32,200 nt of DNA from an uncultured Massilia sp. (GTDB lineage: Bacteria > Pseudomonadota > Gammaproteobacteria > Burkholderiales > Burkholderiaceae): contig CAMLMV010000062.1 in NCBI GenBank assembly GCA_946481275.1, positions 1-32,200 of the forward strand, read 5' to 3'. Numbering within the stretch: the first letter of the stretch is position 1; each line of letters begins with the position of its first letter. Below the pieces are notes generated by a model that worked only from the letters and a program-made list of their open reading frames with translations, was not told the DNA's origin and made no database searches. Both the position numbers and the translations under genes were made by a program. This document shows, in pieces, positions 1,391 through 32,200 of this stretch.

Positions 1391-2545
1391 GTGTCACCGT
1401 TGTACACCCCCGTTACCCGCAAACCGATATTCTCCCTTGCCCTCGCGACGGCGCTGCTGGCAGCCGGCAGCGCAGGCGCCGCCACGCTGTCGGTAGGGCC
1501 GGGCAAGACCTATGTCGCCCCATGCGCGGCCTTTGCGGCCGCAAAGGATGGCGACACCATCGAGATCGTCGGCGACTGGACGTACAACGGCGACACCTGC
1601 GCGATCGCCCGCAGCAACCTGACCATCCGCGGCGTGCAGGGCCGTCCGGTCATCGACGCGGCCGGACAGCAATTCGGCAACAAGGGCACCTGGGTCGTCA
1701 CGGGCAACAACATCACGGTCGAGAACGTCGAGATGCTGGGCGCGAAAGTCAGGGACCGCAATGGCGCGGCGCTCCGTCTCGAAGGTACGAATTTCACGCT
1801 GCGCCAGGCTTTCATCCACGATAACGAGAACGGCATCCTGAGCGGCGTGAACCGGAACAGCACGATCGTGATCGAGCACAGCGAGTTCGGCCACAATGGC
1901 GGCGGCGATGGCCAGACGCACAACCTGTACATCGGCAACGCCAAGAGCCTGACCTTCCGGTACAACTATTCGCACGACGCGGTGATCGGCCACAACCTCA
2001 AGTCGCGTGCCATGTTCAACATGATCGCGTACAACCGCTTCTCGAGCACGCCGCCCGGCCGGCCCGGCAGCACCGCCAGCGGCAAGCCGTCGTACGAGAT
2101 CGACCTGCCGAGCGCCGGTACGTCCTACCTCATCGGCAACGTGATCGAACAGCCGGCCATCAACGACAATCCCGCCATGGTGGCGTATGGCGAAGAAGGC
2201 GCGTCGAATCCTGGGCAGGATCTGTACGTCATCAATAATACGTTCGTGAACGACTTTACCAGCGGTACGTTCGTGTTCGTCAGCGGCAAGGTGTCGACGC
2301 CCGCCCTCATCCAGAACAACGTCTTTGCCGGTCCCGGTACCGTAAGCACGCAAGCCAGCGCCATCCAGAAAGACAACCGCCGCCTGGAAAAGCCGGGTTT
2401 CGTCGACCGCGCCGGCCTCACGTTGCGGCCGCTGGTCAATGAGATCGTCCTGAAGGCGGGTCCGGCAGCGGATCCGTGGACCAGCGGCGCCGGGTCGAAG
2501 GACGCCGCCGCCAAAGCCCGGCCGAGCGGTTACCCGCAGCACTGA
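1391..2545 (+). CDS. Secreted right-handed beta-helix protein, paralogue 1 (no C-terminal modules)
   Basis: Predicted protein of 384 residues starting at GTG, with AGAAGGAA about seven bases upstream. A signal peptide (basic start, hydrophobic core about 13-28, cleavage near SAGA-A) leads into the segment ATLSVGPGKTY shared by all three paralogues. The body consists of short repeated beta-strand turns (for example NLTIRGV, NITVENVEM, NFTLRQAFI, TIVIEHSEFGHN, SLTFRYNYSH) typical of parallel beta-helix (PbH1/pectate-lyase-like) proteins. The conserved segments HNLYIG and GHNLKSRA appear in all three. Unlike the other two it lacks the DIGAYE strand and every four-cysteine module, ending in an Ala/Gly-rich tail. 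It may bind or cleave a polysaccharide, but no catalytic site can be assigned. Its own promoter is not evident, and the GTTACA repeat found before its relatives is absent. Confidence 0.85.
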   Translation: MSPLYTPVTRKPIFSLALATALLAAGSAGAATLSVGPGKTYVAPCAAFAAAKDGDTIEIVGDWTYNGDTCAIARSNLTIRGVQGRPVIDAAGQQFGNKGTWVVTGNNITVENVEMLGAKVRDRNGAALRLEGTNFTLRQAFIHDNENGILSGVNRNSTIVIEHSEFGHNGGGDGQTHNLYIGNAKSLTFRYNYSHDAVIGHNLKSRAMFNMIAYNRFSSTPPGRPGSTASGKPSYEIDLPSAGTSYLIGNVIEQPAINDNPAMVAYGEEGASNPGQDLYVINNTFVNDFTSGTFVFVSGKVSTPALIQNNVFAGPGTVSTQASAIQKDNRRLEKPGFVDRAGLTLRPLVNEIVLKAGPAADPWTSGAGSKDAAAKARPSGYPQH

Positions 2546-2937
2546 CGCTTATACGCAACAGTTCGCGTCCATCAGCGCTTTTTCTGCTGATTTTCGTCAA
2601 AAAGTTGGATTTTGAGGTTTTATGCCTGAATGCTAAGACCTCTTGCAAATCTTTAACTATTGGTTTGTTGCTTCCAGAACTCGACGTTTCATAGGGAGAA
2701 TAAAAGTTGGGTTGCGGAAACACAAACGGCAGCGTTCCGAATAAAATGTGCAGGATGCCATCAAGATGGAATTTTTGGCATGAAGAATGGTGAACGAAGC
2801 GTCCATCGTTTTGTTTCAGGTCTTTTTAATTGAACAATCCCTGTTACATGCCGTTACAAAGCCAGGATGGGAAACCTCGTATTCTGCATCTTGCCCTTGG
2901 GAATTACTTCCCGCACAGAAACTTTACGAGGACTCTC
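2546..2937. other. AT-rich intergenic leader of beta-helix paralogue 2
   Basis: About 390 bp without a credible gene, much richer in A and T than the flanking genes. It contains an inverted repeat (ATGCCA at 2756-2761 facing TGGCAT about 15 bp later) and patches shared with the upstream region of paralogue 3, such as TTCCAG followed by CATAGGGA (2690-2697), which lies at nearly the same distance from the GTTACA repeat in both. Short open frames here have no ribosome binding site and atypical composition. Confidence 0.6.
2843..2887 (+). promoter_or_regulatory. Response-regulator-type promoter of paralogue 2 (GTTACA direct repeat plus -10)
   Basis: GTTACA occurs at 2843-2848 and 2853-2858 with an exact 10-bp period. 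After a fixed 17-bp gap comes CTCGTATTCTGCA (2876-2888), whose TATTCT (2880-2885) makes a plausible -10 element. No good -35 is present; the repeat sits where an activator would substitute for it. The repeat reads TACATGCCGTTACA, one mismatch from the E. coli RstA box TACATNTNGTTACA. The same arrangement with identical spacing precedes paralogue 3. Binding by an OmpR/RstA-family regulator is an inference. Confidence 0.62.
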
Positions 2938-4788
2938 ATGCACACCTTGCGTAACCAATCACTCCTGGCTGCCACCGTTCTGTTGGCCTGCGCAGGTGTG
3001 ACCTCCGCGTCCGCAGCCACGCTGTCGGTCGGCCCGGGCAAAACCTATGCCAAACCCTGCGCCGCCATCGCTGTCGCCAAGGACGGCGACGTCATCGAAA
3101 TCGCCGGCAACACCACTTACAGCGGCGACGTCTGCAGCATCAACCGCCACAACCTGACCATCCGCGGCGTCAACGGCCGCCCGAAGATCGACGCCGCCGG
3201 CAAGAGTGCCGCCGACAAGGGTATCTGGGTCGTCAACGGCAACAACCTGACGGTCGATAACGTCGAGATGTACGGCGCGAAGGTCTGGGACGTCAACGGC
3301 GCCGCGTTCCGCCTGCAGGGCACCGGTTTCACGCTGCGTAACTCGTTTATTCACGACAACGAAAACGGTATCCTGGCCAATGCCAACGTCAACAGCGACA
3401 TCCTGATCGAATACACCGAATTCGGCCACAACGGCGCAGGCGACGGCCAGTCGCACAACCTGTACATCGGTCACGTGAAGAGCCTCACGTTCCGCTACAA
3501 CTACTCGCACGATGCGAACATCGGCCACAATCTGAAGTCGCGCGCGGAGACGAACCTGATCGCCTACAACCGCTTCTCGAGCACTCCGCCGGGCGTGACG
3601 GGCAGCACCGCGGCCGGCCAGCCGTCGTACGAAATCAACCTGCCGAATGCCGGTACGTCCTACATCATCGGCAACATCATCGAGCAGCCGGCCACCAACC
3701 AGAACCCGACCATGGTGGCCTACGGTGAAGAAGGCGTGACCAACGCCGGCAGCGACCTGTACGTCATCAACAATACGTTCCTGAATAACTATTCTGACGG
3801 CACGTTCCTGTTTGTCAGCGGCAAGGTCCCGACTCCGGCGGTGATCCAGAACAATATCTTCGCCGGCATCGGTACCCTCAGCACGCAGGCCAGCTCGATC
3901 CTGAAGTCCAACTATCGTTCGGTGGCGCCCGGCTTCGCCGATCGCGACAAAGGGGACCTGCACCCGACCGGCAGTGCGCTCGTGATCAATGCCGCTACGA
4001 ATCCGGGCGTGTCGCCCAAGGGCGTCTCGCTGACCCCGGTCGCACAATACAAAGGCAACGCTTCCGGCGAAGCACGCCCGGTGGTCGGCCAGCTGGACAT
4101 CGGCGCGTACGAAGCGACGGGCGATGCGGCGAACGTTGCGCCCGTCACCTGGACGGCTTGCGCCAACGAACTTTCGACCTGCTCGTTCAGCGGTACCCGT
4201 GAGGTCCGCTACGGCGCCAACGGCGTCTATACGACGAAGTTCGTGACCGCCTCGACCCCGTGCACGAGCGCCGTGTTCGGCGATCCGATCCGCGGCGTCG
4301 CCAAGACGTGCAGCTATTCCAGCACGCTGTCGACCGCGAGTACGGCTGCGGCCCCGTCCTGGATTCCCTGCGCCGGCGAGAACTACCTCTGCACGTTCAC
4401 CGGCACCCGCGAAGTCCGTTTCGGCGCCGGTACCTCGTTCGTGACCAAGACGTTCACCGGTCCCGTCACCTGCTGGCCGAAGGCATTCGGCAGCGACCCG
4501 GCCCAGGGCGTGCTGAAGACCTGCAGCTACTCCAGCAACACGATCGCGACGTCGGGCTCGACGACCACGACGCCCACGGCACCGGCACCGGCACCGGCGC
4601 CGTCCGACAGCGGCTGGACGGCGTGTGCGGCCGAGGGCGGTATCTGCTCGGTGACGGGTACGCATCAGGTCCGCTATGGCGCCAACGGCATGTATGCAAC
4701 CAAGACCGTGACCGGTCCGGTGGCCTGCACGAATGCTGTCTTCGGTGATCCGGCCTACCGGGTCGTCAAGAGCTGCAGCTATAAATAA
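2938..4788 (+). CDS. Secreted right-handed beta-helix protein, paralogue 2, with three C-terminal four-cysteine modules
   Basis: Predicted protein of 616 residues. The ATG at 2938 follows ACGAGGA and directly begins a signal peptide (hydrophobic about 8-22, cleavage near SASA-A); an in-frame TTG 108 bases upstream would put extra residues before the signal and would overlap the promoter. Residues about 27-392 form the parallel beta-helix shared with paralogues 1 and 3 and close with DIGAYE (387-392). Three modules follow, about 405-460, 475-531 and 560-615. Each begins W-x2-CA and has four cysteines spaced C-x6-C-x26-C-x15/16-C (C408/415/442/458, C478/485/512/529, C563/570/597/613), with a central G-T-[RH]-[EQ]-V-R-[YF]-G and a late FG-x0/1-DP. 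The last two are joined by a Thr/Ala/Pro linker (540-556). Two disulfides per module are likely. Such modules suggest binding to polysaccharide or envelope, which is unproven. Confidence 0.87.
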   Translation: MHTLRNQSLLAATVLLACAGVTSASAATLSVGPGKTYAKPCAAIAVAKDGDVIEIAGNTTYSGDVCSINRHNLTIRGVNGRPKIDAAGKSAADKGIWVVNGNNLTVDNVEMYGAKVWDVNGAAFRLQGTGFTLRNSFIHDNENGILANANVNSDILIEYTEFGHNGAGDGQSHNLYIGHVKSLTFRYNYSHDANIGHNLKSRAETNLIAYNRFSSTPPGVTGSTAAGQPSYEINLPNAGTSYIIGNIIEQPATNQNPTMVAYGEEGVTNAGSDLYVINNTFLNNYSDGTFLFVSGKVPTPAVIQNNIFAGIGTLSTQASSILKSNYRSVAPGFADRDKGDLHPTGSALVINAATNPGVSPKGVSLTPVAQYKGNASGEARPVVGQLDIGAYEATGDAANVAPVTWTACANELSTCSFSGTREVRYGANGVYTTKFVTASTPCTSAVFGDPIRGVAKTCSYSSTLSTASTAAAPSWIPCAGENYLCTFTGTREVRFGAGTSFVTKTFTGPVTCWPKAFGSDPAQGVLKTCSYSSNTIATSGSTTTTPTAPAPAPAPSDSGWTACAAEGGICSVTGTHQVRYGANGMYATKTVTGPVACTNAVFGDPAYRVVKSCSYK

Positions 4789-4810
4789 TCCCCGGCGTTC
4801 CCGATCCGGC

Positions 4811-4840
4811 AAAAAACGCGGCCTCGTGCCGCGTTTTTTT
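4811..4840 (+). terminator. Rho-independent terminator after paralogue 2
   Basis: ACGCGGC pairs with GCCGCGT around CTCGT, preceded by an A run and followed by T7, starting 22 bp after the stop codon. Confidence 0.9.
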
Positions 4841-5310
4841 ATTTTCGGTTATCGGTTTGACGGGGTATTTTGTGGCGCTAAAGTCTCATTAATTGTCCGC
4901 AATTACTCCAGAAACAACCTTTTGTCAGAAAATAGTTTCCATACCTGAACTTTTTCTGTAAATTCCACGAACGTAGTGAAACTCGGCACAACGATCTTGC
5001 CCGAAAAAATGCGGCGTGAACGCAACATCGGCTTAATTTCAAAAAATTTTTTTTGAAGCCATTCAGATAACATGCCCCGACATTGGAATTGCCAGAAAGA
5101 CAGCCACGTTGTCATTCTAGCTTTGTCGATGAATTTTCCAGCGGAAATTAGATTCCATAGGGAAAAACCGTAAAAAACAGTTTCAGGCATCAATTTTTCT
5201 TGCGCTCAATGCTAGAAAGAGCAGCCACATAATGTTCTTTCGCTCTACTAAATAAGGCTAAAAGGAACATCAATTAGCCTCTTTTCAGGATTGCTGGTTC
5301 ATTATTTTCG
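4841..5310. other. Long AT-rich non-coding region upstream of paralogue 3
   Basis: About 470 bp with strikingly low GC for this genome. I see no credible gene: the longest open frame (minus strand, 4903-5193) starts at TTG without a good ribosome binding site and has no recognisable features. Visible elements are an A6T8 tract around 5041-5054 that may bend DNA, an imperfect direct repeat around 5091-5115 and 5213-5240 (both containing GAAAGA and CAGCCAC), and GGCTAA (5256-5261) facing TTAGCC (5274-5279). CATAGGGA at 5156-5163 matches a copy upstream of paralogue 2. It may be an extended regulatory region or the remains of an older insertion. Confidence 0.55.
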
Positions 5311-5356
5311 GTTACACTTCGTTACAGGCCCTCGATCTTAAAACTCGTATTCTGCA
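5311..5356 (+). promoter_or_regulatory. Response-regulator-type promoter of paralogue 3 (GTTACA direct repeat plus -10)
   Basis: GTTACA at 5311-5316 and 5321-5326 repeats the 10-bp period seen before paralogue 2, and CTCGTATTCTGCA follows at 5344-5356 after the same 17-bp gap. TATTCT (5348-5353) is the likely -10. The repeat reads TACACTTCGTTACA, one mismatch from the RstA-box consensus TACATNTNGTTACA. Surrounding bases differ between the two promoters, so the shared parts look conserved rather than merely recently copied. Confidence 0.62.
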
Positions 5357-5411
5357 ACTTTCCAGCAGGAACAACTGCTGACAGGCAATCTGCTTACGAG
5401 GATAAATCGAC

Positions 5412-7046
5412 ATGCAACAACTGCGTCAAACCGCATCGCGCAACACCCAATTCTCCGCTTCGCACCTGGCTGCTGCCGTCCTGATGGCGTTCGCAGGTGT
5501 GGCCACTGCATCCGCAGCGACGCTGTCGGTTGGCCCGGGCAAGACCTACGCCAAGCCGTGCGCTGCGATCGCCGCCGCCAAGGATGGCGACGTCATCGAA
5601 ATCACCGGCAACACCACGTATAGCGGCGACGTCTGCTACATCCCGCGTAACAACCTGACGATCCGCGGCGTCAACGGCCGTCCGAAGATCGACGCGGCCG
5701 GCAAGAACGCGGCCGGCAAAGGCATCTGGGTCGTCAGCGGCAGCAACCTGACCGTCGACAACGTCGAAATGTACGGCGCTAAAGTGCCGGACGCAAACGG
5801 TGCTGCGTTCCGCCTCGAAGGGGCCGGTTTCACGCTGCGCAACTCGTTCCTCCACGATAACCAGAACGGTATCCTGGCGAACGCCAACGTCAACAGCGAC
5901 ATCGTGATCGAGAACACCGAATTCGGCCACAACGGCGCAGGCGACGGCCAGTCGCACAACCTGTACATCGGTCACGTGAAGAGCCTGACCTTCCGCTACA
6001 ACTTCTCGCACGACGCCAACCTCGGCCACAACCTGAAGTCGCGCGCAGATACCAACCTGATCGCGTACAACCGCTTCTCGAGCCTGAACCCGGGCGAGAC
6101 GGGCAGCACCGCCGCCGGCAAGCCGTCGTACGAGATCGACCTGCCGAACGCCGGTACGTCCTACGTCATCGGCAACATCATCCAGCAACCGGCATCGAAC
6201 GCGAACGCGGCAATGCTGGCCTACGGTGAAGAAGGCGCGACCAACGCCGGCAGCGACCTGTACGTCATCAACAACACGTTCCTGAACGATATGGGCAGCG
6301 GCGGTACGTTCATGTTCGTCAGCGGCAAGGTGCCGACCCCGGCCATCGCCCAGAACAACATCTATGCCGGCGTCGGCACGTTCAGCACGCAGGCATCGAC
6401 GGTCGACAAGACGAACTACCGTTCGGCCTCGCCGAGCTTCGCGAACCGCGCCGCGTACGACCTGCATCCGACCGGCAGCGCGCTGGTGATCGATGCCGGC
6501 TCGGATCCGGGCGTGTCGGCCAAGGGCGTGTCGCTGAAGGCTATCGCGCAATACAAGCATGTCGCCGCCGGCGAAGCACGTCCGGTGGTCGGCCAGATCG
6601 ACATCGGCGCGTACGAATCGACGACCGCGCCGACCACGTCGACGACGTCCTGGACCGCTTGCGGCAACGAAGGCTCGACCTGCTCGTTCAGCGGCACCCG
6701 TGAAGTCCGCTTCGGCGCGAACGGTGTGTACACGTCGAAAACGATCACGGGCTCCACGCCGTGCACGACCGCCGTGTTCGGCGATCCGATCCGCGGCGTC
6801 GTCAAGTCGTGCAGCTACGCCAGCACGACCACGGCTGCGCCGGTGACCGCTACGCCGACGTTCACGGCCTGCGCCACCGAAAACGGCACCTGCTCGTTCA
6901 CCGGCAAGCGTGAAGTCCGCTACGGCACCAGCACGATCTACACCTCGAAGGTCGTGACCGGTCCGGTCAAGTGCACCAACGCCGTGTTCGGCGACCCGGC
7001 ACGCGGCCAGGTCAAGTCCTGCTCCTACTCGAGCGTGACGCAGTAA
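5412..7046 (+). CDS. Secreted right-handed beta-helix protein, paralogue 3, with two C-terminal four-cysteine modules
   Basis: Predicted protein of 544 residues. The ATG at 5412 is preceded by ACGAGGATAA. The signal peptide is longer than in paralogue 2 (hydrophobic about 18-33, cleavage near TASA-A). The beta-helix spans about 36-402, with HNLYIG (182-187), GHNLKSRA (205-212) and DIGAYE (397-402). Two modules follow, 414-469 (C417/424/451/467) and 484-539 (C487/494/521/537), keeping the C-x6-C-x26-C-x15-C spacing; the second starts with F instead of W. It is closest to paralogue 2: a 73-bp stretch (5914-5986 here, 3413-3485 there) is identical at DNA level. Export to periplasm or outside is likely. 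Function is unknown; a polysaccharide-directed role follows only from the fold. Confidence 0.87.
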   Translation: MQQLRQTASRNTQFSASHLAAAVLMAFAGVATASAATLSVGPGKTYAKPCAAIAAAKDGDVIEITGNTTYSGDVCYIPRNNLTIRGVNGRPKIDAAGKNAAGKGIWVVSGSNLTVDNVEMYGAKVPDANGAAFRLEGAGFTLRNSFLHDNQNGILANANVNSDIVIENTEFGHNGAGDGQSHNLYIGHVKSLTFRYNFSHDANLGHNLKSRADTNLIAYNRFSSLNPGETGSTAAGKPSYEIDLPNAGTSYVIGNIIQQPASNANAAMLAYGEEGATNAGSDLYVINNTFLNDMGSGGTFMFVSGKVPTPAIAQNNIYAGVGTFSTQASTVDKTNYRSASPSFANRAAYDLHPTGSALVIDAGSDPGVSAKGVSLKAIAQYKHVAAGEARPVVGQIDIGAYESTTAPTTSTTSWTACGNEGSTCSFSGTREVRFGANGVYTSKTITGSTPCTTAVFGDPIRGVVKSCSYASTTTAAPVTATPTFTACATENGTCSFTGKREVRYGTSTIYTSKVVTGPVKCTNAVFGDPARGQVKSCSYSSVTQ

Positions 7047-7113: not shown

Positions 7114-9183
7114 TTACCAGATGATCACGCGCTCCTGCGGCGCCAGGTACATCTTGTCGCCCTGCTTGACCTTGAAGGCGTCGTAGAAGCCCGGCTGGTT
7201 GCGCAGTGTGCCGTTGGCGCGGAACTGGCCCGGCGAGTGCGGGTCGGTCTTCACCTGGACGATCTGCTGCTGTTCGCGCATCTTGGTGCGCCACACCTGG
7301 GCCCAGCCCATGTACAGGCGCTGTTCGCCCGTCAGGCCGTCGATCACCGGCGCCTTCTTGCCCTTCAGCGAAATCTTGTAGGCTTTATAGGCGATCGCGA
7401 GACCCGAGTTGTCGGCGATGTTCTCGCCCAGCGTCAGTTCGCCGTTCACGTGGTAGCCCTTGATCGGCTCGAACTGGTTGTACTGCTTGACCAGCATCTT
7501 GGTCTTGGCCTCGAAGTTCTTGTGGTCGGCCGCGGTCCACCAGTCGCGCAGGTTGCCGTCGCCGTCGTACTGGGCGCCCTGGTCGTCGAAGCCGTGGCTG
7601 ATCTCGTGGCCGATCACGGCGCCGATGCCGCCGTAGTTGACCGCGTCATCCGCATTGGCGTCGAAGAACGGCGGCTGCAGGATCGCGGCCGGGAACACGA
7701 TCTCGTTCATCTCCGGGTTGTAGTACGCGTTGATGGTCTGCGGCGTCATGCCCCACTCGTCGCGGTCGATCGGCTTGCCCAGCTTGTTCAGCTCGCGGTT
7801 GTACTCGACGTCGCGCGAACGCATCACGTTGCCCACCAGGTCGTCACGCGACACGACCAGTGCCGAGTAATCCTTCCACTTGTTCGGGTAGCCGATCTTC
7901 GGCGTGAACTTGGCCAGCTTGGCCTGTGCTTCCTTCTTGGTGGCCGGCGACATCCAGTCCAGCTTGTCGATGCTCTGCTTGTAGGCGACCAGCAGGTTCT
8001 TGACCAGCGCTTCCATGCGCGCCTTGCGCTCCGGCGGGAAGTACTCGGCCACGTACAGCTTGCCCAGCGACTCGCCCTGCGAACGCTCGATCGCGGCCAC
8101 GCCACGCTTCCAGCGCGGTTCCATCTCCTTCACGCCCGACAGGGTCTTGCCGTAGAAGTCGAAGCGCTCGTCGACGAAGGCCTTGTTCAGGTAGCTCGCG
8201 TACGCGTCCACCAGGTGCATCGTCAGGTAGGCCTTCCAGGTGTCCAGCGAGGTCTTGTTGGAGATCTCGGCGAAGCCCTTCAGGTAGGTCGGCTGGCTGA
8301 CGATCACATAGGTCGCCTTGCCGGCGATACCCGTGGCCTGCAGGTAGCCGTTCCAGTCGTAGTCCGGCGCGACCTTGCCCATGTCGGCCAGCGGCACCTT
8401 GTTGTAGGCCTTGATCGGGTCGCGCAGTTCGACCTTGGTCCACTGCACCTTCGCCAGTTCCGTCTCGAAGTCGACGATGGCCTTCGCGTTGGCGGCGGCG
8501 TTCTTGTCGCCGGCCAGCGCCAGCGTCTTCTCGACGTGCGTCAGGTACTTGGCCTTCGCGTCGGCCAGCTTGGCGTCGTCCGCCTTCAGGTAGTAGTCGC
8601 GGTCCGGCATGCCGAGGCCACTTTGATAGATGTCGGCGACGTACTTGGTCGAATCCTTGTTGTCCTGGTGGATGCCGAAGTCGTACGGCACGTTCACGCC
8701 GATCTTGCCGAGGTGCGCCAGCAGCGCGGGCAGTTCGGACTTGTCCTTCAGCGCCGCGATCTTCGCCAGTTCGCCGTTCAGCGGGGTGATGCCCAGCTGC
8801 TCCAGCTTCGCTTCGTCCATGAAGCTGGCGTAGTAATCGCCGATGCGCTGGGCGTCGGTGCCCTTGGCCGGGCTGCCGGCGGCGGCTTTTTCGATGATGC
8901 CGCGCAGCTGCGGCAGCGTGTCGTCGCGCAGCTTGGCGAACGAACCCCAGCTCGATTTGTCGGCCGGGATCTCGACCGTCTTCATCCACTTGCCGTTCAG
9001 GTATTCATAGAAATCGTCCTGCGGGCGGACCGCCGGATCGATGTAGTCGGTGGCGATGCCGGCCGACAGGGTCTGGCCCTTCTTGATGGCCGTGTTCTTG
9101 GCGGCGGCGCCTTCCGCCGCATGGCCGGCGTTGGCAAGCAGCGCCAGGGTCAGGGCGCTCAACAGGGTGTGCTTCTTCATCAT
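7114..9183 (-). CDS. M13-family zinc metallopeptidase (neprilysin/PepO type), copy A
   Basis: Predicted protein of 689 residues, the usual size for bacterial M13 enzymes. A signal peptide (cleavage near GHA-A at about residue 22) indicates export. The peptidase N-terminal domain contains the family segment DDFYEYLNGKW; the catalytic domain has HEISH (H526, E527, H530) and GENIADNSG, whose E587 is the third zinc ligand and D591 supports catalysis. NAYYNPEMNEIVFPAAILQ is the usual substrate-binding edge strand, and the protein ends in the family-typical aromatic residue. The start at 9183 has GGGAG eight bases upstream; the adjacent ATG at 9180 is also possible. It lies 92 bp downstream of a close paralogue in the same direction and shares with it the terminator at 7066-7094. 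It should degrade small peptides in the periplasm. Confidence 0.93.
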   Translation of the reverse strand: MMKKHTLLSALTLALLANAGHAAEGAAAKNTAIKKGQTLSAGIATDYIDPAVRPQDDFYEYLNGKWMKTVEIPADKSSWGSFAKLRDDTLPQLRGIIEKAAAGSPAKGTDAQRIGDYYASFMDEAKLEQLGITPLNGELAKIAALKDKSELPALLAHLGKIGVNVPYDFGIHQDNKDSTKYVADIYQSGLGMPDRDYYLKADDAKLADAKAKYLTHVEKTLALAGDKNAAANAKAIVDFETELAKVQWTKVELRDPIKAYNKVPLADMGKVAPDYDWNGYLQATGIAGKATYVIVSQPTYLKGFAEISNKTSLDTWKAYLTMHLVDAYASYLNKAFVDERFDFYGKTLSGVKEMEPRWKRGVAAIERSQGESLGKLYVAEYFPPERKARMEALVKNLLVAYKQSIDKLDWMSPATKKEAQAKLAKFTPKIGYPNKWKDYSALVVSRDDLVGNVMRSRDVEYNRELNKLGKPIDRDEWGMTPQTINAYYNPEMNEIVFPAAILQPPFFDANADDAVNYGGIGAVIGHEISHGFDDQGAQYDGDGNLRDWWTAADHKNFEAKTKMLVKQYNQFEPIKGYHVNGELTLGENIADNSGLAIAYKAYKISLKGKKAPVIDGLTGEQRLYMGWAQVWRTKMREQQQIVQVKTDPHSPGQFRANGTLRNQPGFYDAFKVKQGDKMYLAPQERVIIW

Positions 9184-9275: not shown

Positions 9276-11297
9276 TTACCAAATGGTGACGCGCTGCTCC
9301 GGCGGCAGATACATCTTGTCGCCTTCCTTCACGCCGAACGCCTCGTAGAACGCGGCCTGGTTGCGCAAGGTGCCGTTGGCGCGGAACTGGCCCGGCGAGT
9401 GCGGGTCGGTTTTTACCTGCACGATCTGCTGCGCCTCGCGCATCTTCGAGCGCCACACCTGCGCCCAGCCCATGAAGAAGCGCTGGTCGCCCGTGAGGCC
9501 GTCGATGACGGGGGCCTGCTGGCCGTGCAGCGAGATTTTATAAGCCTTGTACGCGATGGCGAGGCCCGAGTTGTCGCCGATGTTCTCGCCCAGCGTGAGG
9601 GCGCCGTTGACGTGGTAGCCCGGGAGCGGTTCGAAAGCGTCGTACTGCTTCACCAGCATGTCGGTCTTGGCCTTGAAGCGCGCCTGGTCCTGTGCAGTCC
9701 ACCAGTTGCGCAAATTGCCCTCGCCGTCCGACTGGCTGCCCTTGTCGTCGAAGCCGTGGCCGATCTCGTGCCCGATCACGGCGCCGATGCCGCCGTAGTT
9801 CACGGCGTCGTCCGCGCTTGCATCGAAGAACGGCGGCTGCAGGATCGCGGCCGGGAACACGATCTCGTTCATGCGCGAGTTGTAGTAGGCGTTCACCGTC
9901 TGCGGCGTCATGCCCCACTCTTCGCGGTCGATCGGCTTGCCCAGCTTGTCGATGTTGCGGTTGTACGCGAACGTCGCGGCGCGCATCACGTTGCCGGCCA
10001 GGTCATCCTTCCTGATGCTCAGGCGCGAGTAGTCGCGCCACTTGTTCGGGTAGCCGATCTTCGGCGTGAACTTCGCCAGCTTGGCCTGGGCTTCCTTCTT
10101 GGTCTCCGGCCCCATCCAGTCGAGCTGGTCGATCGATTCCCGGTACGCGGCGAGGACGTTCTTCACGAGTTCCTCCATGCGCGCCTTGCGCTCCGGCGGG
10201 AAGTACCTGGCCACGTATTCGCGGCCCAGCGCCTCGCCCAGCGCGCCTTCGACGACGGACACGCCGATCTTCCAGCGCGGGCGGTTGACGTCCGCACCGG
10301 TCAGCGTCTTGCCGTAGAAATCGAAGTCCGCGTCGACGAACGCCTTCGACAGGTAGGGCGCGTATTCGCGCAGCAGCTGCCACTGGAAATACGCCTTGAC
10401 CGTCTCGAGATCGGTGTTCGCAAGCAGCTTGTCCAGGCCCTGCAGGTAGGTCGGCTGGCCGACGATCACGTAATCGACCTTGTTGCCCACGCCGGCGGCG
10501 CCCAGCGCCGTCTTCCAGTCGTACCCCGGCGTCAGCGCGGCGAGCTGCGCCACGTCCATCCTGTTGTAATTCTTGTTCGGGTCGCGCAGTTCGACCTTCG
10601 TCCACTGCACCTTCGCCAGTTCCGTCTCGAACGCGACGATCGCTTGCGCCTTCGCGTCCGCATCCTTGTCGCCGGAAAGCAGAAGGATCTTCGCGACATG
10701 CTGTTCGTACTTCGCCCTGGTCGCGGCCATCTTGGCGTCGTCCGCCTTCAGGTAGTAGTCGCGGTCCGGCATGCCGAGGCCGCCCTGGCGGATGTACGTG
10801 GCGTACTTCGTGGAGGCTTTCGCGTCCTGCGCGACGCCGATGCCGTACGGCGTCGCGACGCCGATCTTCGACAGGTGCGCGATCAGGTCCGGCACGCCCT
10901 TCTTGTCCTTCAGCCTGCGGATGCGTGCCAGCTCGCCCGTCAGCGGCTTGTAGCCCAGCGTCTCCAGCTTCTTCTCGTCCATGAAGCTCGTGTACAGGTC
11001 GGCGATCTTCTGCGCGTCGGTGCCGGCCTTCTTGTGCGGGTCCTTCTGGTCCGCTTCGATGATGCCGAGGAGCTGCGGCTGAGTGTCCTCGCGCAGCTTC
11101 ATGAAGGTGCCCCAGCTCGAACGGTCGGCGGGGATCTCGGTCGTCTTGAGCCACTTGCCGTTCAGGTAAGTGAAGAAATCGTCCTGCACGCGTACGCTCG
11201 GGTCGATGTATTGCGTGTCGATGCCGGCGCGGTCCGCCGCGGATGCGAAGGCGGCCAGCATGGAGAGGGTCAGGGTACTGAGAAGGTATCGTTTCAC
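9276..11297 (-). CDS. M13-family zinc metallopeptidase (neprilysin/PepO type), copy B
   Basis: Predicted protein of 673 residues beginning at GTG (11297), chosen because AAAGGA lies six bases upstream and the signal peptide (cleavage near ASA-A, about residue 20) starts immediately; longer readings would begin at TTG without a ribosome binding site. It has the same architecture as copy A: DDFFTYLNGKW near the N-terminus, zinc site HEIGH (H510, E511, H514), GENIGDNSG with E571, and the terminal W. The glycine in HEIGH replaces serine of copy A, which need not affect zinc binding. Both copies end in an almost identical 40-residue block and share long DNA identities, so they arose by tandem duplication. 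Probably cotranscribed with copy A. Confidence 0.93.
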   Translation of the reverse strand: MKRYLLSTLTLSMLAAFASAADRAGIDTQYIDPSVRVQDDFFTYLNGKWLKTTEIPADRSSWGTFMKLREDTQPQLLGIIEADQKDPHKKAGTDAQKIADLYTSFMDEKKLETLGYKPLTGELARIRRLKDKKGVPDLIAHLSKIGVATPYGIGVAQDAKASTKYATYIRQGGLGMPDRDYYLKADDAKMAATRAKYEQHVAKILLLSGDKDADAKAQAIVAFETELAKVQWTKVELRDPNKNYNRMDVAQLAALTPGYDWKTALGAAGVGNKVDYVIVGQPTYLQGLDKLLANTDLETVKAYFQWQLLREYAPYLSKAFVDADFDFYGKTLTGADVNRPRWKIGVSVVEGALGEALGREYVARYFPPERKARMEELVKNVLAAYRESIDQLDWMGPETKKEAQAKLAKFTPKIGYPNKWRDYSRLSIRKDDLAGNVMRAATFAYNRNIDKLGKPIDREEWGMTPQTVNAYYNSRMNEIVFPAAILQPPFFDASADDAVNYGGIGAVIGHEIGHGFDDKGSQSDGEGNLRNWWTAQDQARFKAKTDMLVKQYDAFEPLPGYHVNGALTLGENIGDNSGLAIAYKAYKISLHGQQAPVIDGLTGDQRFFMGWAQVWRSKMREAQQIVQVKTDPHSPGQFRANGTLRNQAAFYEAFGVKEGDKMYLPPEQRVTIW

Positions 11298-11348
11298 GAA
11301 AGGTCCTTTGTGCTGCAAATGCGGCTTGTGGCCATCGGCGAATGTAAC

Positions 11349-31799: not shown

Positions 31800-32200
31800 A
31801 TGGCAAGAATTATCGTTGTAACGTCCGGTAAGGGTGGTGTGGGCAAGACCACCTCGAGCGCTAGCTTCTCGACCGGCCTCGCGCTGCGCGGCCACAAGAC
31901 CGTCGTCATCGACTTCGACGTCGGCCTGCGCAACCTCGACCTGATCATGGGTTGCGAACGCCGCGTCGTGTACGACCTGATCAACGTCATCAACGGCGAA
32001 GCGAGCCTGACCCAGGCCCTGATCAAGGACAAGCACTGCGACAACCTGTTCATCCTGCCGGCATCGCAGACGCGCGACAAGGATGCGCTGTCGGAAGAGG
32101 GCGTGGAAAACGTCTTGAACGAGCTGATCAAGATGGACTTCGAGTTCATCATCTGCGACTCCCCGGCCGGCATCGAGCACGGCGCCCTGATGGCGCTGAC
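31800..32200 (+). CDS. minD: Septum site-determining ATPase MinD (5' part, cut by the window edge)
   Basis: 133 full codons are visible, open to the right edge. The ATG at 31800 has AAAGGACA upstream. The deviant Walker A SGKGGVGKTT (about 9-18) with its signature lysine, DFDVGLRNLDLIMG as switch region and ICDSPAGIEHGA as the Walker B/switch II part are diagnostic for MinD. MinD binds the inner membrane as an ATP dimer, recruits MinC and is displaced by MinE. The C-terminal membrane-targeting helix lies outside the window. Confidence 0.97.
   Translation, partial: MARIIVVTSGKGGVGKTTSSASFSTGLALRGHKTVVIDFDVGLRNLDLIMGCERRVVYDLINVINGEASLTQALIKDKHCDNLFILPASQTRDKDALSEEGVENVLNELIKMDFEFIICDSPAGIEHGALMAL

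Follow-up and report, generated by a model that had tools for sequence, protein, structure and literature searches.

The window analysed here, a 32,200-nucleotide stretch of DNA from an uncultured Massilia sp. (contig CAMLMV010000062.1 of assembly GCA_946481275.1), contains three paralogous genes, referred to below as genes 1, 2 and 3. In front of the latter two, which encode beta-helix proteins, lies the same short arrangement: two GTTACA half-sites in tandem and, 21 base pairs (bp) past them, the hexamer TATTCT. This arrangement is not chance. On the sequence evidence it is well supported as a promoter of a known kind, of which it would be a new example with unusually strong comparative support. 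We consider it fairly probable that the response regulator OmpR/RisA binds the tandem box and substitutes for the -35 element, so that each of the two genes would have a promoter of the class II activated type. The promoter elements are the following.

2843-2858, plus strand: tandem OmpR-type box of gene 2, GTTACA-N4-GTTACA (half-sites 2843-2848 and 2853-2858), from a motif search; half-sites invariant in 7 aligned loci.
5311-5326, plus strand: tandem OmpR-type box of gene 3, GTTACA-N4-GTTACA (half-sites 5311-5316 and 5321-5326), from a motif search; half-sites invariant in 10 aligned loci.
2880-2885, plus strand: -10 hexamer TATTCT of gene 2, 21 bp past the box, within CTCGTATTCTGCA (2876-2888), read from the sequence.
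5348-5353, plus strand: -10 hexamer TATTCT of gene 3, 21 bp past the box, within CTCGTATTCTGCA (5344-5356), from the sequence and the orthologue alignment.
2892, plus strand: putative transcription start of gene 2, 7 bp past the -10, which would centre the box at -41.5.
5360, plus strand: putative transcription start of gene 3, with the box likewise centred at -41.5.

A first-pass annotation of this DNA had placed the two boxes 17 bp before CTCGTATTCTGCA, and the coordinates and the distance are as it gave them (intervals 2859-2875 and 5327-5343). These are the only exact copies of GTTACA-N4-GTTACA in the window, with 0 mismatches; one additional match with 2 mismatches lies on the minus strand at 31817-31832, and shuffled windows (n=100) contain on average 0.57 matches at up to 2 mismatches, with three reached in 2 of the 100. 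The 10-bp period and both half-sites expected of an OmpR/RisA tandem are present exactly in each copy. Relative to the putative starts, the half-sites would occupy -49 to -44 and -39 to -34. Gene 1 had been said to lack the box, and does: within 260 bp upstream of it in the window, and likewise in eight orthologous loci, even the best match departs from the box at 4-5 of 12 positions. A simple sigma-70 promoter scan gave nothing above threshold in 2540-2960, and a weak promoter-like site at 4857-4884, distant from the gene 3 box.

The arrangement is retained in orthologous loci. Box, spacing and -10 are kept upstream of gene 2 in seven of them (the window, L007, L008, L009, L010, L018 and L023, the -10 of L018 being TATCCT) and upstream of gene 3 in ten (the same seven together with L012, L013 and L005 of genome G022); none of the 13 bases of the gene 3 CTCGTATTCTGCA block varies among orthologues. 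Because L007 is almost the same sequence as the window and several of the species are close, these observations are not independent, and L007, as a near duplicate, is excluded from the conservation counts. The bases between the motifs had been described as not conserved. This stands in so far as the N4 and the 17-bp spacer vary among orthologues, unlike the half-sites, but the spacer is not random: the two paralogues have 8 of its 17 bases in common, and orthologues show no variation at 6 of the 17 for gene 2 and 10 of the 17 for gene 3. Partial conservation also extends into the 150 bp before the box (90 and 58 of 150 bases invariant for genes 2 and 3, respectively). Among 12 further loci, L016 and L017, which also belong to the diverged homologues treated next, combine a 1-mismatch box with TATGCT or TATCCT at 21 bp. 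In L015 a box at 2 mismatches is not followed by TAnnCT at 21-22 bp, and L011, L014, L019-L022 and L024-L026 have no box (best matches with 3-6 mismatches).

Conservation extends across the genus, which we sampled with 62 congeneric genomes. The nearest genome analysed (G001, 6.8 Mb) contains the exact tandem three times, two of them at these genes, and the control, the pattern read backwards, not once. A scan of all 62 genomes for the box followed by N14-20 and CGTATTCT returned 17 sites in 10 genomes, with 0 in the control. Of the 52 genomes without such a site, 43 encode a homologue (46 places) and 9 have none that we could find. Excluding a short fragment in G017, 45 of these places, at 56-75% identity, constitute a diverged set, in which 31 homologues are preceded by a box at up to 2 mismatches (200 rounds of shuffling give a mean of 0.56 and never more than 3); the reversed box pattern precedes only 2 of the 45. 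Past the box, TAnnCT follows at 21 bp in 25 of the 31 and at 22 bp in another three, 28 altogether (shuffle mean 0.34, maximum 4 in 2000 rounds). These 28 have what class II promoters require, a site that abuts or replaces the -35 at a fixed distance from the -10, together with a poor -35: in all 28, the sequence closest to TTGACA 16-18 bp ahead of the -10 differs from it at 3-5 of the 6 positions. Spacing and motifs, which the first-pass annotation had taken to be under selection, both hold in most genus homologues, far above shuffles.

The gap between half-sites is similarly constrained. Gaps other than 4 are found in 0-2 of the 45 diverged homologues, except for a gap of 8, found in 10; in nine of these ten, the partner of the box's own first half-site is a half-site-like, often weak sequence lying 14 bp upstream. 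A clear RTTACA at this position, seen in 5 of the 31 boxed homologues (L081, L084, L095, L097 and L099), is perhaps a further half-site. In one clade (L115-L120, L122 and L123), GTAACA or GTGACA and TATTCT are kept and the second half-site is replaced by an ATGTCC-like sequence, which in most members is followed by the palindrome GGAATTAATTCC.

The promoter architecture is largely restricted to the beta-helix family. A relaxed pattern, STTACA-N4-STTACR-N21-TANNCT, occurs at 31 sites in 22 of the 62 genomes and at 0 in the control, and is thus not randomly distributed. Listing the downstream genes placed a family member 3' of 29 of the 31 sites (28 of the 30 whose locus was examined, and the 31st via L045), with no clear further targets; at the remaining two the locus ends within 130 bp of the box and cannot be judged. 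The pattern was built from beta-helix genes, so that recovering them is no test; the informative result is that nothing else was recovered. In 10 genomes, a looser scan for the box followed by N21 and TATNNT at up to 2 mismatches produced 18 exact sites and 10 others, each of the latter at 2 mismatches; the control had 4 hits. None of the ten had the relaxed family pattern, and inspection by eye showed no clear target gene. Neither the 62-genome nor the 10-genome scan revealed a wider regulon with the strict box and -10 architecture.

Several similar sequences were seen elsewhere. The third exact tandem of G001 (L001, around 1500-1516) is intergenic, on the minus strand before a regulator-like gene, with no -10 at 21 bp. 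Two groups recur among the ten 2-mismatch hits of the looser scan. In four Massilia genomes (L051, L052, L055 and L056) GATACA-N4-GTTACA and a nearby inverted copy lie, judging by eye, beside a methionine-synthase-like gene; this metH-region element may be the site of a related regulator. In two genomes (L046 and L050), GTTTCA-N4-GTTACG followed by TATTGT was noticed by eye near an outer-membrane-like gene on the opposite strand.

Bordetella belongs to the same order as Massilia, and the protein L062 of G001 is a putative orthologue of Bordetella RisA. G001 encodes 23 proteins with an OmpR-type DNA-binding domain, all of which were scanned against NCBIfam (for 15 of the 23, strong matches only are listed). 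L062 is the sole one above the OmpR cut-off, with 421 versus 331 bits. In alignment, its DNA-binding domain is close to that of E. coli OmpR, for which a structure is solved (1odd; RSLDVQISRLR versus RSIDVQISRLR). None of the 23 reaches the RstA cut-off of 330 bits, so that no RstA orthologue is recognised in G001; the closest is L066, with 222 bits. By the NF007005 cut-off the OmpR equivalog is present in all 62 congeneric genomes, for which reason its co-occurrence with the beta-helix homologues is uninformative.

The motif of the box points to the same protein. Every base of the OmpR motif GTTACAnnnnGTTACA quoted in PMC7315122 is matched by the window tandem; the same paper gives TACAtntngtTACA as the motif of RstA. 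RisA is an OmpR-family regulator whose gene adjoins risS (PMC5020355), and GTTACA is its motif in 391 of 430 peaks obtained by chromatin immunoprecipitation sequencing in Bordetella (PMC11019879). Compared with the RstA box of E. coli and Klebsiella, TACATNTNGTTACA (PMC4117788), both copies are one base off, as the first-pass annotation had noted and as is read directly from the sequence: C for T at box position 7 in the 2843 copy and at position 5 in the 5311 copy. That annotation proposed a regulator of the OmpR/RstA family acting in place of a -35. An OmpR-family tandem, a TATTCT -10 and no -35 agree with it; the choice of RstA is less supported, the tandem being exact for the OmpR motif and one base off for RstA, and no G001 regulator passing the RstA cut-off.

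We propose that a sigma-70 promoter with TATTCT as its -10 and no -35 drives each of genes 2 and 3. The half-sites, between -49 and -34, would be bound by a head-to-tail dimer of an OmpR-family response regulator, for which the genus' own OmpR (RisA in Bordetella) is the most likely candidate, and the bound protein would contact RNA polymerase and replace the -35, giving a class II activated promoter. This class fits a box centre that would fall at -41.5, a conserved spacing to the -10 and a poor -35. In activator-dependent sigma-70 promoters of class II the activator is centred near -41.5 and a good -10 is combined with no -35; the Massilia promoter resembles them in all these respects, and we know of no difference that distinguishes it. 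We infer from the sequence the identity of the regulator, activation rather than repression, and the transcription start. By analogy, the signal may be osmotic or envelope stress, or linked to cyclic di-GMP (c-di-GMP).

The proposed promoter can be set beside described systems. With E. coli OmpR promoters (PMC7315122) it shares an identical tandem motif, the 10-bp period and a site extending to the -35 region, and the genus encodes an OmpR equivalog; it differs in that OmpR sites there are quite degenerate, whereas the Massilia tandem is perfect at a fixed, putative position of -41.5, serves another target gene and is a predicted binding site. The Bordetella pertussis RisA regulon (PMC11019879, PMC5020355) has the GTTACA motif and an OmpR-family regulator in common with it, but comprises 430 sites with motifs 5 to 180 bp apart, in contrast to one fixed tandem that is near-private to one family. 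The RstA box of E. coli and Klebsiella (PMC4117788) is likewise made of tandem TACA units with a 10-bp period bound by a head-to-tail dimer; the Massilia copies depart from it by one base each, and none of the 23 G001 regulators exceeds the RstA cut-off. Among the matches listed by a literature search on Massilia, beta-helix and OmpR, none concerned this promoter.

Some observations weigh against an OmpR/RisA-activated promoter. Only L016 and L017 of the 12 further loci tested have the box plus the -10, and 14 of the 45 diverged homologues have no box at up to 2 mismatches. Two of these 14 (L088 and L101) have a weaker box with 3 mismatches and a TA-hexamer at 22 bp, eight keep the first half-site and TATTCT at 21-22 bp with a poor second half-site, and four (L093, L106, L121 and L124) have no convincing box. 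The TAnnCT hexamer was chosen after inspecting the sequences, and the relatives in which it was counted are not independent. A box on the minus strand occurs in 5 of the 45 upstream regions, above the plus-strand shuffle level, perhaps because part of the half-sites are near-palindromic. OmpR is also present in the nine of 52 genomes where no homologue was found, and the 22 other OmpR-type regulators of G001 may read similar sites. Finally, should OmpR/RisA act globally as it does in Bordetella, a near-private arrangement would be odd.

The activator could instead be another OmpR-family regulator working by the same mechanism, such as the RstA-like L066, which we regard as unlikely. In its favour are the single-base departure of the boxes from the E. 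coli RstA box, the report that RstA boxes may be imperfect (PMC4117788), and L066 itself, whose best NCBIfam model is RstA and whose relatives at E 1e-60 occur in 60 of the 62 genomes. Its score, however, stays below the cut-off, a genome with a box (G007, locus L087) has no L066 relative at E 1e-60, albeit in an assembly 83% complete, and the OmpR and RisA motifs fit without a mismatch; RstA is less likely than OmpR/RisA. Repression deserves slightly less credence still. An OmpR-family protein at -49 to -34 would in that case block RNA polymerase, and the site does reach the -35 region; the authors of PMC11019879 suggest that RisA represses some Bordetella promoters. But a good -35 is absent in 28 of 28 diverged cases, and a conserved -10 at conserved spacing with no -35 is what activation requires.

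It is very improbable that CTCGTATTCTGCA is a transcribed leader rather than a -10, its CTCGTA pairing with TACGAGGA around the ribosome-binding site and transcription starting further upstream. Each leader has, at its ribosome-binding site, a TACGAG complementary to CTCGTA (2876-2881 with 2925-2930 for gene 2, 5344-5349 with 5395-5400 for gene 3), and the fold z-scores are -2.7 (from 2876) and -2.3 (from 5344). Yet other clades have no CTCG while TAnnCT remains 21-22 bp from the box, L009 has CACGAG in both genes, weakening the pairing without compensation, and no upstream -10 common to both genes was found by eye. The complementarity to the ribosome-binding region may matter after all. A leftover of a recent tandem duplication, or chance, has a negligible probability as the source of the shared block. 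Genes 2 and 3 are indeed paralogous and the neighbouring sequence is partly conserved among orthologues, but ahead of the box an ungapped comparison of the two finds just 70 identical bases in 200, with a best blastn match of 9 bp, and motif and spacing persist at 56-75% identity. This paralogue divergence, the shuffles and the 31 sites against none in the control rule it out.

Further elements were noted around the OmpR/RisA promoter.

2687-2698, plus strand: second conserved block of gene 2, TTTCATAGGGAG, 156 bp before the box start (orthologue alignment).
5153-5164, plus strand: second conserved block of gene 3, TTCCATAGGGAA, 158 bp before the box start (orthologue alignment).
2899-2912, plus strand: possible leader hairpin of gene 2, GGGAATTACTTCCC, from folding; no pair with both sides changed (RNAalifold).
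5363-5380, plus strand: possible leader hairpin of gene 3, CAGCAG-GAACAA-CTGCTG, from folding.

A block resembling TTCCATAGGGAA, in either orientation and with at most 1 mismatch, precedes 17 of the 45 diverged homologues, a count for variants picked by eye and without a shuffle control; the second block is possibly the site of another regulator. Upstream of gene 3 an inverted repeat, ATGTTCTTT...AAAGGAACAT (5232-5270), is kept by eye in most of the 10 aligned loci. The leader hairpins are visible, and their covariation is not convincing. An Rfam search of 2500-5500 gave two matches only, both far below the cut-offs, and for 11 second-clade leaders RNAalifold gave no consensus fold. A leader stem formed by AAATGTKTC and GACACATTT pairs in 81.8% of cells versus 25-52% when slid, but was dropped, as 185 of 500 column shuffles did as well.

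The three paralogues are arranged as follows.

1391-2545, plus strand: gene 1, third paralogue, 384 amino acids, no box; adjoins an upstream cytochrome c gene and a terminator-like hairpin.
2938-4788, plus strand: gene 2, beta-helix protein of 616 amino acids with a signal-peptide-like start and three C-terminal repeats (secretion and repeats judged by eye).
5412-7046, plus strand: gene 3, paralogue of gene 2, 544 amino acids, two C-terminal repeats.

A Pfam search of the three products returned no domain. The C-terminal repeats are cysteine-bearing, of about 55 residues and without a Pfam match, three in gene 2 (about 4143-4788) and two in gene 3 (6650-7046); they are absent from gene 1. The family is large, with 2721 relatives at E 0.001 or better among 7995 candidates scored. 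Among the 120 relatives listed, most are named 'hypothetical protein', one is a 'right-handed parallel beta-helix repeat-containing protein' and two have PF13229. In the nearest named record, Massilia kyonggiensis, the beta-helix part of gene 2 is found at 99% identity, which places the window in Massilia. A structural model of the gene 2 product is moderate (mean pLDDT 75, pTM 0.61) and shows a beta-helix followed by the C-terminal repeats. In Foldseek it matches polysaccharide lyases best (RbmB of Vibrio cholerae, PL6 and Pel9A), with low TM-scores of 0.24-0.36 by query length for the lyases at ranks 1-4. Because of the moderate model and these low scores, we claim only that the product appears beta-helical and lyase-like.

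It is possible, though this is a tentative suggestion, that the genus maintains a near-private OmpR/RisA promoter, in which a high-affinity fixed tandem, along with the TTCCATAGGGAA-type element and a conserved leader, serves a family of secreted beta-helix proteins of polysaccharide-lyase-like fold, and hardly any other genes, as a dedicated output linked to envelope stress or c-di-GMP. The proteins could then serve, for example, in matrix remodelling. In any case, the two genes are a very clean candidate OmpR/RisA target in Massilia, and the hypothesis links a large protein family, as yet uncharacterised, to a specific regulator. The fixed geometry over many species makes the position rule of OmpR-type activation directly testable, and the promoter could be used as a reporter of OmpR/RisA activity.

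In the neighbourhood of these genes, two adjacent similar open reading frames lie on the minus strand 3' of gene 3 (7114-9183 and 9276-11318); they are apparent paralogues and by eye metallopeptidase-like. In L023, the matches to gene 2 and gene 3 are broken, around 6606 and 9208.

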